Below, piece after piece: positions 39,944-43,443 of a stretch of 64,000 nucleotides of DNA (within the stretch, counting starts at the first letter, position 1; every line of letters starts with the position of its first letter). The DNA comes from Pseudobutyrivibrio sp. ACV-2 (GTDB taxonomy: Bacteria; Bacillota; Clostridia; Lachnospirales; Lachnospiraceae), in NCBI RefSeq assembly GCF_900107545.1, contig NZ_FNQZ01000005.1:124001-188000 (forward strand). Reading direction: 5' to 3'. The position numbers were made by a program, and so were the translations under genes. Under the pieces are notes generated by a model that saw only the letters and a program-made list of their open reading frames with translations, was not told where the DNA came from and made no database searches.

Positions 39944-40231
39944 TTATTTACCTATGCGCTTAAGCACCATATCATAGCCATCATTTCCATAGTTAAGTGC
40001 TCTATTCACACGGCTAATAGTTGCAGAACTAGCACCTGTTTCATCAGCAATGTCCTGATATGTGCGCTCTTCACGTAGCATTTTAGCAACCTCGAAGCGC
40101 TGCTTCATAGCTACCATTTCATTTACTGTACATAAATCTTCAAAAAATTCGTAAGCTTCCTCGACAGTCTCGAGGCTAAGAATGGCTCTTAAAAGCTCAT
40201 CCATCTCTGCTGTTTCAAGTTTCTTATTCAT
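39944..40231 (-). CDS. yerC: TrpR-like protein YerC/YecD
   Basis: 95 residues of the YerC family, small DNA-binding proteins with a TrpR-type helix-turn-helix: VNEMVAMKQRFEVAKMLREE then TYQDIADETGASSATISRVNRAL. Widespread in Firmicutes, target unknown. GTAGTTGTAATA precedes the ATG, with GGAG about 12 bases upstream. It is monocistronic, ending at a strong terminator. Confidence 0.88.
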   Translation of the reverse strand: MNKKLETAEMDELLRAILSLETVEEAYEFFEDLCTVNEMVAMKQRFEVAKMLREERTYQDIADETGASSATISRVNRALNYGNDGYDMVLKRIGK

Positions 40232-40336: not shown

Positions 40337-40402
40337 TTGTTACTTTACAGTAACAATACTTTGAGACATAAATTTCGGCTCCCTTAAAAGAGAGCCGAAG
40401 AA
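40337..40402 (-). terminator. Two hairpins after asnA
   Basis: First on the minus strand comes TTCGGCTC/GAGCCGAA (40376-40402), then ATTGTTAC/GTAACAAT (40337-40358), which is followed by ATTTTTTTG. The second is a clear intrinsic terminator for the asnS-asnA transcript; the first has no T-run. The remaining intergenic bases up to yerC hold only a likely promoter. Confidence 0.7.
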
Positions 40403-40476: not shown

Positions 40477-41487
40477 TTAAAGGATAACTACACCCTTTTC
40501 GTTCGCATATTTTACATCTTCCTCTGGCCAGAATGAACACTGAACCTCTCCGATGTGGCATTTGCGAAGGAAGAACATACAGATACGGCTCTGTCCAATA
40601 CCACCACCAATAGTATATGGAAGCTTCTTCTCAAGGATTGCCTTTTGGAATGGAAGCTGGGCTCTGTCCTCACAGCCAGCTTTTTTAAGCTGTGATGCAA
40701 GACTATCCTCATCAACTCTGATACCCATTGATGAAAGCTCAAGAGAAATATCATCTACTGGATAATATACGATAATATCTCCGTTTAACTGCCAATCATC
40801 ATAGTCAGGAGCACGACCATCGTGCTTTTCACCAGAAGCAAGTAAATCGCCTATCTTCATAAGGAAGATTGCACCGTATTCTTTGGCTGCTTCATATTCA
40901 CGCTGGTGTGCATCAAGGTCTGGCCATCTATCCTCAAGCTCCTGTGTAGTAATGAAGTGAATCTCCTCTGGAAGGATACACTGAACATAATCATAAGAAT
41001 TTGCAATGTATTTTTCTGTCACACGAAGGGCAGCATAAACACTCTTTACATATTTCTTGAGAGTCTCCTCTGTACGAGAAGCTTTATCGATAATACATTC
41101 CCAGTCCCACTGATCCACATAGATAGAATGGATATTATCTGTATCCTCGTCACGACGAATAGCGTTCATATCGGTGTAGAGGCCTTCACCAACATTAAAG
41201 CCGTAGCGACCTAAAGCCATTCTCTTCCATTTTGCAAGTGAATGAACTACCTCTACCTCTTTGTCGCCCTGCTCCTTTACGCCGAAAGCAACTGGACGCT
41301 CAACACCATTTAAGTTGTCATTAAGACCTGACTTAGGCTCTACAAAAAGTGGCGCGGTTACACGATGAAGGTTGAGCTCAGCTGTAAGCTGTGCCTGGAA
41401 GAAATCCTTTACCTTCTTGATAGCTATCTGGGTTTCTTTAAGGTTTAGTGCCGAAGCATATCCCTCGGGAATGTAAATCTTGCTCAT
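40477..41487 (-). CDS. asnA: Aspartate-ammonia ligase AsnA
   Basis: 336 residues, standard length. Makes asparagine from aspartate, ammonia and ATP. It is a class II synthetase-like fold: VTAPLFVEPKSGLNDNLNGVERPV near the N-terminus, WKRMALGRYGFNVGEGLYTDMNAIRRDED in the middle and IGGGIGQSRICMFFL at the end (ATP-binding motif 3). GGAGG precedes the ATG. It follows asnS by 26 bases in one transcript, so asparagine synthesis and asparaginyl-tRNA formation are controlled together. Confidence 0.95.
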   Translation of the reverse strand: MSKIYIPEGYASALNLKETQIAIKKVKDFFQAQLTAELNLHRVTAPLFVEPKSGLNDNLNGVERPVAFGVKEQGDKEVEVVHSLAKWKRMALGRYGFNVGEGLYTDMNAIRRDEDTDNIHSIYVDQWDWECIIDKASRTEETLKKYVKSVYAALRVTEKYIANSYDYVQCILPEEIHFITTQELEDRWPDLDAHQREYEAAKEYGAIFLMKIGDLLASGEKHDGRAPDYDDWQLNGDIIVYYPVDDISLELSSMGIRVDEDSLASQLKKAGCEDRAQLPFQKAILEKKLPYTIGGGIGQSRICMFFLRKCHIGEVQCSFWPEEDVKYANEKGVVIL

Positions 41488-41513: not shown

Positions 41514-42914
41514 TTATAGGTCGCAGTTTCCAACAGTACGTGGGAATGGAATTACGTCACGGATGTTGCCCATTCCTGTAAGGTACATTACACAGCGCTC
41601 AAAGCCAAGACCGAAGCCTGCATGACGTGAGCTACCATATTTACGAAGATCAAGGTAGAACTGATAATCCTCTTCCTTGAGACCGCATTCCTGCATTCTC
41701 TTAAGAAGCACATCGTAGTCGTCCTCACGCTGAGAACCACCGATGATTTCTCCGATACCAGGAACGAGGCAGTCCATAGCTGCTACAGTCTTGCCATCTT
41801 CGTTGAGCTTCATGTAGAAAGCCTTGATTTCCTTTGGATAATCTGTAACAAATACTGGCTTTCCGAAAATCTTTTCTGTTAAATATCTCTCATGCTCTGT
41901 CTGAAGATCACAGCCCCAAGATACCTTGTAGTCAAATTCATCGTTGTGCTTTTCAAGCTCTGCTACTGCATCTGTGTATGTGATGCGGCCGAAATCAGAA
42001 GTAGCAACATGATGAAGTCTGTCAAGAAGTCCCTTGTCGATGAAGCTGTTGAAGAATTCCATTTCCTCTGGAGCATGCTCAAGAACGTAGTTGATAACGA
42101 ACTTGATCATTTCCTCTGCAAGCTGCATATCATCTTCAAGGTCTGCAAATGAAATCTCTGGCTCAATCATCCAGAACTCTGCTGCATGACGAGTTGTGTT
42201 TGAGTTTTCAGCTCTAAATGTAGGACCAAATGTGTAAATGTTTTTGAATGCCTGTGCGTATGTTTCGCCGTTAAGCTGACCTGAAACTGTAAGGTTTGTG
42301 GCATGTCCAAAGAAATCCTGTGAGAAATCTACCTTGCCATCTTCAGTCTTTGGGATGTTGTTAAGATCCATTGTTGTAACCTGGAACATCTCGCCAGCAC
42401 CCTCGCAGTCAGAACCTGTGATAAGTGGAGTGTGAACATATACGAAATCGCGCTCCTGGAAGAATTTGTGAATAGCATAAGCGCAAAGAGAACGAACTCT
42501 GAATACTGCCTGGAATGTGTTAGTACGAGCACGAAGATGTGTCTGTGTACGAAGATATTCCATTGTGTGTCTCTTTGGCTGGATTGGGTAGTCAGGTGTT
42601 GACTTGCCTTCTACCTCGATTTTTGTTGCCTGAATTTCAAATGGCTGCTTTGCTTCTGGTGTAAGGACAACTGTACCTGTTACGTATACTGCTGCACCTA
42701 CGTTAAGCTTTCTAACCTCGTCGAAGTTGTCGATGTTTTCCTGGTTGAAAACAACCTGTACTGGATTAAAAAAAGTACCATCTGCAAGTACTAAGAAACC
42801 AAATGTCTTTGAATCACGCATGTTGCGCACCCATCCAGAAACTGTAACTTCTTTATCTGCATAGTCTGCAAAGTTTCTAGAGAGAGTTCTTACGTCTGTA
42901 GTTTTAACGCTCAT
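41514..42914 (-). CDS. asnS: Asparaginyl-tRNA synthetase AsnS
   Basis: 466 residues from the ATG at 42912-42914 (AAGGAG upstream). An OB-fold anticodon-binding domain ([21 protein letters not shown]) precedes a class II core: motif 2 [21 protein letters not shown], motif 3 [14 protein letters not shown]. AsnS rather than AspS is indicated by the closeness to the AsnS length and by NSNTTRH. It heads the asnS-asnA operon, preceded by a 215-base leader with an Asn-rich peptide. Confidence 0.95.
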
Positions 42915-42949
42915 TGTTTTTCTCCTTATAATATGAATAAACATAAGTT

Positions 42950-43021
42950 AAGCCCCATCAAACTTGCGTCTGATGAGGCTTTCTAATTCTTACATATTTG
43001 AACAATCTTCAAATCTCATCA
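42950..43021 (-). promoter_or_regulatory. Attenuator with two mutually exclusive hairpins before asnS
   Basis: Three segments in minus-strand order: A at 43015-43021 (TGATGAG), B at 42971-42981 (AAGCCTCATCA), C at 42950-42961 (TTGATGGGGCTT). B:C is an 11-bp stem with a 9-base loop, the downstream terminator-like hairpin. A:B is a 7-bp stem using the same bases of B, so the two cannot coexist. A lies 12 bases after the leader-peptide stop, so a ribosome at the stop would cover it, while one stalled on the Asn codons would leave it free. The tail after C is only modestly T-rich. Confidence 0.7.
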
Positions 43022-43032
43022 AAGCAATAAAA

Positions 43033-43107
43033 TTAAATCCCCTGATTATTATTCACGGAATTATTATTGTTATTGAGATTATTATTAAGCATAGATGTAA
43101 ATGCCAT
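43033..43107 (-). CDS. Asparagine-rich leader peptide of the asnS-asnA operon
   Basis: A 24-codon ORF: residues 8-10, 12-16 and 19-21 are Asn (11 in all, ten AAT and one AAC), in the order MAFTSML-NNN-L-NNNNN-SV-NNN-QGI. AAGGGGA lies 7 bases before the ATG and a strong promoter 20 bases further up, with no other gene between it and asnS. Such regulated-residue-rich peptides are the sensors in attenuation of trp, his and leu operons. Here stalling at Asn codons during asparaginyl-tRNA shortage should favour hairpin A:B and expression of asnS and asnA. Confidence 0.8.
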   Translation of the reverse strand: MAFTSMLNNNLNNNNNSVNNNQGI

Positions 43108-43134
43108 GACTGTTCCCCTTCTTTATTTGAGTAA

Positions 43135-43163
43135 AGTATAGTTATTTAGACTTTTAAAGTCAA
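43135..43163 (-). promoter_or_regulatory. Promoter of the asnS-asnA leader
   Basis: Minus-strand TTGACT (43158-43163), a 17-base spacer and TATACT (43135-43140). Transcription would start near 43128, about 20 bases before the leader-peptide ATG. Confidence 0.75.
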
Positions 43164-43212: not shown

Positions 43213-43443
43213 CTAAGGCAAAGTGCACTCCTTTTGCCTTTTCAAGTCTTCCTCCCACTGGTTTTCAAACACCCTTGTAAAATGGCACTCCCCACTGATT
43301 GCAAAGAAAGGCTTACCATCTATGGTCATATAATAATTGGTAAAACCAATCTCTCTCCCATCCGGATTTTTCCCATAGAATGTCTTTGATAAAGGATAAA
43401 TCTCTTGGTTTCTTGCCTTTGTAAAATCTAACAAATGTCCCAT
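43213..43443 (-). pseudogene. N-terminal stub of a GH35 beta-galactosidase
   Basis: 76 residues. YPLSKTFYGKNPDGREIGFT and NYYMTIDGKPFFAISGECHF followed by W-E-xDLKR are the opening of GH35-type beta-galactosidases, before the catalytic barrel. The frame stops after KRQKECTLP and the remaining 500 or more residues are absent. The GAGGGA ribosome site is intact. Remnant only. Confidence 0.75.

Follow-up and report, generated by a model that had tools for sequence, protein, structure and literature searches.

How is the asnS-asnA gene pair of Pseudobutyrivibrio sp. ACV-2, a rumen-type bacterium, controlled, and can a short translated leader report the supply of asparagine to it? The locus lies on the minus strand of a 64,000 nt stretch of contig NZ_FNQZ01000005.1 (positions 124,001 to 188,000), here called the window, and all coordinates given for the locus are window coordinates. 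The original prediction, made from the letters of the window, was that an Asn-rich leader peptide and two alternative hairpins form an asparagine attenuator of asnS-asnA. We conclude that asnS-asnA are probably controlled by ribosome-mediated transcription attenuation, with the leader acting as a sensor of tRNA-Asn charging. Judged from the sequence, this interpretation is well supported, and the original one is partly supported.

Direct reading finds the promoter, the ribosome site, the leader and the three switch segments A, B and C of the original prediction in their predicted places on the minus strand. The sigma-70-type promoter TTGACT-N17-TATACT (43135-43163; TTGACT at 43163-43158, TATACT at 43140-43135) matches 10 of 12 consensus bases. 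It is followed by the ribosome-binding site AAGGGG (43115-43120) and by the leader peptide open reading frame (ORF), MAFTSMLNNNLNNNNNSVNNNQGI (43033-43107), with 24 codons and a stop, 11 of the codons coding for Asn. Direct reading and alignment place segment A (TGATGAG, 43015-43021), the 5' arm of the antiterminator, segment B (42971-42981), common to antiterminator and terminator, and segment C (42950-42961). B and C form a terminator hairpin of 14 pairs with the loop GCAA (42950-42981), found by terminator scan, folding and alignment, and followed by AACTTATGTTTATT. Two more elements come from the minimum free energy (MFE) fold. The first is a 'protector' pairing, in which segment 1 (43064-43079), a set of leader codons able to pair with A, meets a partner that includes A (43013-43030). 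The second is hairpin P0 (43036-43062; AATTCC-G-TGA, loop, TCA-G-GGGATT), which is also given by RNAalifold, contains the last three Asn codons and is possibly a pause hairpin for RNA polymerase.

The genes downstream are the predicted ones, and both score above the NCBIfam cut-offs. In brief, asnS (41514-42914, start at 42914; NF003037 and TIGR00457) encodes the asparagine-tRNA ligase, and asnA (40477-41487; TIGR00669), 26 bases past the end of asnS, encodes the aspartate-ammonia ligase.

We searched for asnS in the genome of strain ACV-2 and in 60 relatives; 29 genomes represent the genus. In 27 of these the asnS start can be seen (26 full matches and an N-terminal piece in G024, where asnS is split over two contigs), and no such match was listed for G021 and G027. 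The leader adjoins asnS in 25 of the 27. An exact pattern for the leader core, AATAATAATCAGGG..., occurs once each in 25 of the 29 genomes, all of them among the 27 with a visible asnS start. The leader is complete in 24 of the 25 and cut by a contig end in L063. Examples of the leader peptides are MAFTSMLNNLNNNNNNSVNNNQGI, MSRSFVINNNNNNNNNSVNNNQGI and MTYSVILNNNINNNNNNSVNNNQGINFDVFDEI. Counted on 23 distinct complete leaders, with the duplicate L064 and the cut L063 omitted, Asn makes up 10-14 of 24-33 codons (39-50%), and the 263 Asn codons are AAT (222) and AAC (41). The aligned ORF has internal gaps three bases long up to the last Asn run, and all 24 complete leaders of the genus have a purine-rich site 5' of their ATG. 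Replacements within the Asn run are few (Ser in L047 and L054, Ile in L055, and a Leu codon whose place shifts).

The pairings A:B and B:C are mutually exclusive, both using B, and so this part of the original prediction stands, in a leader that is present in 25 of 27 genus genomes. Across the 24 rows of the genus alignment, A always reads TGATGAG and B always has GCCTCATCA. Segment C varies (TGATGGGG, TGATGAGG and TGGTGGGG), and every one of these variants can pair with B. The RNAalifold consensus for the genus contains P0, B:C and a small hairpin overlapping A. A compensatory change was found at one A/B position in a set of 39 leaders, 23 of them Asn leaders and 16 from the wider family described below: the pair is G-C in 31, A-U in 6, G-U in 1 and unpaired in 1, and the same B base faces C as C-G in 32, U-A in 6 and U-G in 1. 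It should be noted that A was taken in this set as the best complement of B, sought from leader nt 40 to 15 nt before B, a choice that is biased in favour of pairing. The position of A was not otherwise imposed, and its distance to the start of the leader is 79-89 nt for 38 of the 39 leaders. The exception is L196, where the script chose a stretch at 56, probably wrongly, and A is uncertain there. Alignment of relatives had been named as a check in the original prediction; conserved Asn codons and, in the wider family, a compensatory change were found, and within the genus there was none of the latter.

These data bear on the idea that B:C is a partly efficient constitutive terminator and that the small ORF is either non-regulatory or encodes a functional small peptide. 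Most species share an N-terminus like MAFTSML, as would be expected of a functional peptide. In L042, L049, L054, L055 and L065, however, the first residues differ and the Asn run stays. Moreover, A is invariant and matches B, yet it lies outside the coding frame in 21 of the 23 full leaders. We regard a constitutive terminator as highly improbable and return to the attenuator.

We folded the RNA made before C with a ribosome at each codon, the RNA being masked as far as 13 nt 3' of the first nucleotide of the codon in the A site. Without a ribosome, the probability that A is paired upstream is at least 0.5 in 19 of 23 leaders, the others being L042, L054, L055 and L058, the last of which is the window's own. 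A ribosome at the first Asn codon gives an A:B probability of 1.00 in all 23 leaders, and at later Asn codons it is at least 0.87 in 19. The protector pairing depends in part on the codons of segment 1: shuffling them (60 shuffles each) gives a mean probability of 0.37 that A is held upstream, against 0.63 for the native leaders, and 21 of 23 natives exceed their own shuffled mean.

What the sequence shows is which parts are present and conserved, which two genes follow, that the pairings exclude each other and that they covary in the wider family; stalling at Asn codons, the timing, the role of P0 in pausing and the size of the effect are what we infer. We suggest that, when Asn-tRNA is short, the leading ribosome would wait in the Asn run and cover segment 1, leaving A free. 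Free A would pair with B before C is synthesized, the B:C terminator would be prevented, and asnS-asnA would be transcribed. When Asn-tRNA is plentiful, the ribosome would finish and leave, and segment 1 of the leader RNA would capture A. In the leaders with a long ORF (L054 and L055), the ribosome at the stop codon would instead cover A under these conditions. With A sequestered, B:C would form and transcription would end.

Whether the hairpin acts on transcription or on translation was left open in the original prediction, and the evidence now leans clearly towards transcription. We counted the ten bases that start at the last T of the hairpin in 25 leaders. These tails have 5-8 T, and three relatives (L044, L060 and L061) have seven T in a row. 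The distance from the end of the hairpin to the asnS start codon ranges from 24 to 205 nt in the same 25 leaders, which fits a terminator and speaks against a hairpin that acts at the asnS ribosome site; this site lies outside B:C. If B:C controlled translation of asnS instead, the weak T-run past the window's hairpin (TTAACTTATG) would be accounted for, and the tail in the window does remain weak. In view of the variable distances, the position of the ribosome site and the seven-T tails, we consider translational control very unlikely indeed. Some species have long inserts between the terminator and asnS (L003, L004, L012 and L013); those of L003 and L004 carry the repeat TCAAGGAGGGGCCCTTTAGGG..., with two copies in L003, and the inserts in L012 and L013 differ from these in kind.

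Several observations weigh against an attenuator that senses Asn-tRNA in the way proposed here. The window's own tail has the fewest T of the 25 leaders (5 of 10), and its protector is weak: without a ribosome, A is held upstream with a probability of 0.26 and A:B forms with 0.65. A ribosome at late Asn codons lowers A:B in L042, L049, L051 and L059, down to 0.06. The codon shuffle test is weak for single leaders (0.00-0.60 of the shuffles reach or exceed the native value), and the leaders are related to one another. A:B is missing from the RNAalifold consensus of the genus, and that fold has 0 pairs changed on both sides, with a covariation term of -0.66 kcal/mol, so the genus alone gives invariance and not covariation. 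B:C, with its 14 pairs, is far stronger than A:B, which has 7-9 pairs by eye, and antitermination must therefore be kinetic. Two species (G011 and G025) retain asnS-asnA without the leader; neither an Asn ORF nor the A...B motif was found in their loci (L015 and L019), where asnS begins one base past the stop of a coding frame and asnA still lies 3' of asnS. We take this coding frame to be a chemotaxis receptor.

The most specific difficulty concerns the ribosome at the stop codon, which according to the original prediction covers A. In the window, A starts 14 nt past the first base of the leader stop codon, and an edge of the ribosome placed at +13 to +15 does not prevent A:B in 21 of 23 leaders. 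Moving the edge to +17 brings A:B to 0.5 or below in these 21, except in L056 (0.76) and L057 (0.54), so that an edge of about +17 or +18 would be needed. Only L054 and L055, with their long ORF, put the stop on A, and in these two A:B fails with the ribosome at the stop. The predicted covering of A is plain in these two leaders and would depend on the footprint edge in the other 21. Since A:B persists in the others, termination in Asn-rich cells carrying short-ORF leaders probably proceeds, according to the model, by release of the ribosome and renewed pairing of segment 1 with A, or by a wide ribosome footprint.

Could the arrangement be due to chance? Promoter matches in the region number 10, against 9.3 expected from shuffles, and a single match therefore means little. 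TTGACN-N17-TATACT is found at the same place, however, in all 24 genus leaders long enough to be checked. The leader ORF is the sole ORF in the window, on both strands, that has no more than 60 codons and at least six Asn making up at least 30%. Five consecutive AAY codons are found at 3 sites of the strain's own genome (7 overlapping matches) and the reversed-pattern control gives 5, which means that the run is not exceptional in itself; its location is. A 101-nt stretch of the leader region folds with z = -4.14 (200 shuffles), and both this and a 201-nt stretch are more stable than every one of 200 shuffles. We found no second good match of the leader DNA in the strain's own genome, where the next best has E = 0.118, and a regulon within this genome was rejected on that basis.

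A T-box is the obvious candidate for another kind of leader at this locus. No Rfam family, including the T-box RF00230, matches the window at gathering score, and the original prediction was correct in this respect. No T-box match was found up to E = 1 in the genus leader loci L041, L054 and L055. We rejected a T-box, a riboswitch or another Rfam element, as ten loci (these three and seven of the wider family) searched up to E = 1 gave SpR10 alone, a match in L041 with 22.8 bits against a cut-off of 50. The genus does possess T-boxes: a sample of 41 genomes included 25 from the genus, and all of these have 1-3 matches. In nine genus loci that were fetched, the frame 3' of the T-box looks like anthranilate phosphoribosyltransferase, presumably a tryptophan gene.

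The original prediction also held that Firmicutes normally use T-boxes for asnS and asnA. This was not borne out in the loci that we sampled. Other genera supplied 20 upstream stretches, 16 of asnA and 4 of asnS, and 3 of them gave a T-box at gathering score: G037 has one before each of the two genes, and G055 has one before asnA. We also scanned 20 of 80 named asnS loci, mostly ones with Lachnospiraceae in the title, and found no T-box in these 20. In the specifier region of the T-boxes, L182 and L183 have GAAGAACA and L192 has GAAGAACC, and GAAGAAC is present. Following the specifier rule GAA...XXXA, as given in a legend of PMC5794164, we read XXX in these T-boxes as probably AAC (Asn). No Asn leader was found in the 80 named asnS loci, 78 of which have at least 200 nt upstream (ORF of at most 60 codons, at least five Asn and at least 30%), or in the 20 stretches from other genera (ORF of at most 80 codons, at least five Asn and at least 25%).

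Leaders of a similar build are found elsewhere in the Lachnospiraceae, before genes that encode GNAT or methyltransferase proteins. We built a covariance model, R1, on the window's leader and 19 others of the genus, 20 sequences in all and every one an Asn leader. Run over 397 family genomes, R1 matched two genus genomes and eight others at E 0.01. Seven of these eight matches, L168-L172, L174 and L175, have E values from 7.8e-7 to 0.006 per genome and combine a leader ORF with an A/B/C switch; neither asnS nor asnA was found in the fetched loci of the eight. On 11 further loci, where E values are rough, R1 matched L237-L240 at 1e-11 to 4.4e-9 and L236, L196, L209 and L197 at 9e-6 to 0.0037; L198, L199 and L210 went undetected at E 0.01. 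A second model, R2, built from 16 sequences, matched 22 of 397 family genomes (E 0.01), 26 of 29 genus genomes (E 0.1) and 32 of 392 order genomes (E 0.001); the genus and family members that went into R2 match it by construction, and many of the weakest matches are probably due to chance. L173 and L200-L208 were set aside as chance matches because they have no leader ORF of this kind or the match lies in apparent coding sequence. The script gave no leader ORF in L243 and L247. L243 was probably read at a wrong offset; in L247 the core sequence is present and a GNAT-type gene follows, with no ATG at the place examined.

In all, we note GNAT/methyltransferase leaders in L168-L172, L174, L175, L196-L199, L209, L210, L236-L242, L244-L246 and L248. 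Some are second copies within the genus. These precede a protein with GNAT and methyltransferase domains (L238 and L209 by Pfam, L237 by equal length, L239 and L236 by similar starts) or, in L240, a methyltransferase, and the peptides of two of them are MVRLYLTINHTNNANPVNNNQGISFDVIDERHG (L237) and MKYIFLNNFNTSDSNPVNNNQGIIGVTNDEERQYIC (L238). Ten downstream proteins that were examined all have GNAT or methyltransferase Pfam domains, and among the matches listed for them in NCBIfam none reached the model cut-off. Many of the peptides share the core (P/S)VNxNQG, with departures that include L174, L175, L197-L199, L209, L210 and L236. In L174 (1478-1576), before a GNAT-domain gene, three Tyr codons stand near the place of the Asn triplet (KPVYYYIQG). 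A P0-like hairpin, CCGUGAA...AUCAGGG, is found in many leaders of the wider family. Folding without a ribosome gave a probability of 0.45-0.88 that A is held upstream in six of seven of these leaders, the exception being L174, and the idea that the wider family does without a protector pairing was rejected. Nine leader peptides gave nothing in Pfam or NCBIfam except a chance-like match to Pou (E = 0.27), no significant Rfam, Pfam or NCBIfam match was found for the wider-family leaders scanned, and the L175 leader had no match in plasmids.

This kinship gives rise to the strongest alternative, namely that the leader has kept the role of these relatives and responds to slow translation of any kind, such as that caused by a translation inhibitor, and not to Asn-tRNA, with the Asn run serving as an AU-rich spacer of weak structure. 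The scaffold, and often the peptide core, are common to the GNAT/methyltransferase leaders, several of which have LNN or NNN stretches, and a modelled ribosome that is stalled at many non-Asn codons also yields A:B. Asn accounts for 2-8 of 32-40 codons (5-23%) in 24 wider-family leaders, which implies that part of the Asn content is inherited scaffold, a further count against a dedicated Asn sensor. Among the leaders counted, however, the high Asn content of 39-50% is found only before asnS-asnA. The changes within the Asn run are mostly between AAT and AAC, with the few replacements mentioned above, and the coincidence of an Asn run with the asnS-asnA pair is unlikely to be due to chance. We therefore regard a general stall sensor as unlikely at this locus and keep to sensing of tRNA-Asn.

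The ORF continues past A in 16 wider-family leaders of the 39-leader set and in the Asn leaders L054 and L055. In the other Asn leaders, one extra T after CAGGGGATT leads to an early stop. The Asn run sits between the start codon and P0, where the other leaders have mixed residues. A small tree, from a short alignment and with an arbitrary root, unites the 23 Asn leaders as a cluster within the wider family, with a support of 0.60, or of 0.98 for 22 of these leaders; L054 and L055 stand at the base of the cluster. Based on these sequences, the Asn leader looks like a descendant of the GNAT/methyltransferase leaders of the genus and family, or like a relative that shares a common ancestor with them. 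The simplest account would be that a general leader was copied before asnS-asnA, that the Asn run then grew, and that the early stop came last.

From their layout, the GNAT/methyltransferase leaders may sense slowed translation. One can go further and speculate that the Lachnospiraceae reuse a modular attenuator, with a P0-like hairpin, an A/B/C switch and a nearly fixed position of A, that the content of the leader ORF decides what is sensed, that most copies probably report stalled translation, and that one copy in this genus gained an Asn run and became a sensor of Asn-tRNA. We consider the case for and against this proposal to be evenly balanced. If it is true, it would give an evolutionary route from a stress attenuator to an amino-acid attenuator, and the kinship of the leaders offers a natural series for following the change of sense species by species.

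Leader-peptide attenuators of the trp, his and leu type are known from the Proteobacteria; their short ORF is enriched in codons for the amino acid under control. The Asn leader resembles them in its codon-rich short ORF, in its exclusive antiterminator and terminator and in the terminator before the first gene. It differs in that Asn would be the amino acid sensed and in the spacing of 11-12 nt that separates the end of the stop codon from A in 21 of 23 leaders, so that a ribosome at the stop does not simply cover A. The same type of attenuator is also mentioned in PMC5794164, which describes a Leu-rich, translation-dependent attenuator of ilv-leu in Staphylococcus aureus. By description, that system is likewise a translation-dependent transcription attenuator in a Firmicute and not a T-box, but it responds to leucine and controls a biosynthesis operon. 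In bacilli, His leader peptides before hisS*/hisZ replace T-boxes, according to Naville and Gautheret (2010, PMC2965389). These too are leader peptides before an aminoacyl-tRNA synthetase-type gene in Firmicutes, at a locus that has a T-box elsewhere, whereas the amino acid, the genes and the taxon are different; again, the likeness is one of descriptions.

T-box leaders of asnS and asnA (RF00230) serve the same target genes in other families (G037 and G055); unlike the Asn leader, they bind tRNA directly, without translation of a leader. The leaders before GNAT and S-adenosylmethionine (SAM)-methyltransferase genes share with the Asn leader the leader ORF, the P0-like hairpin, the A/B/C switch and the terminator, and differ in having no long Asn run, an ORF that extends past A (in 16) and targets unrelated to asparagine. 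Attenuators of Actinobacteria are treated in PMC1262725, where a search of the main text gave neither 'asparagin' nor 'Asn'. In the titles and opening lines of abstracts that our searches of the open PubMed Central literature listed, we found no published leader-peptide attenuator for asparagine and no account of this leader in Pseudobutyrivibrio. As far as these searches reach, the kind of attenuator is known, and Asn as the amino acid and the shared scaffold are new.

If our reading is true, asparagine joins the amino acids that are sensed by leader-peptide attenuation, and does so in Firmicutes, where T-boxes are usually expected. The mechanism also requires a ribosome close behind RNA polymerase. 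In Bacillus subtilis transcription and translation are reported to be mostly uncoupled (PMC7858274, citing Johnson et al. 2020), and a working attenuator in the Lachnospiraceae would argue for coupling at least at this locus. This argument is not tight, because ribosome-mediated transcription attenuation is reported for bmrCD in B. subtilis (PMC4191407).

The surroundings of the gene pair add a few details. A terminator-like hairpin after asnA (40374-40399) likely marks the end of the operon; it rests on a consensus match, and the scan of 3.4 kb of the region found 3 such sites, B:C among them, against 2.2 expected. Past asnA lies a gene for a TrpR-related protein of the YerC/YecD family (39944-40231, TIGR02531). 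Just 5' of the promoter is an ORF of 76 residues (43213-43443), which has no NCBIfam match and resembles the truncated start of a longer gene. A sequence resembling this ORF is also found 5' of the leader in L020-L023.

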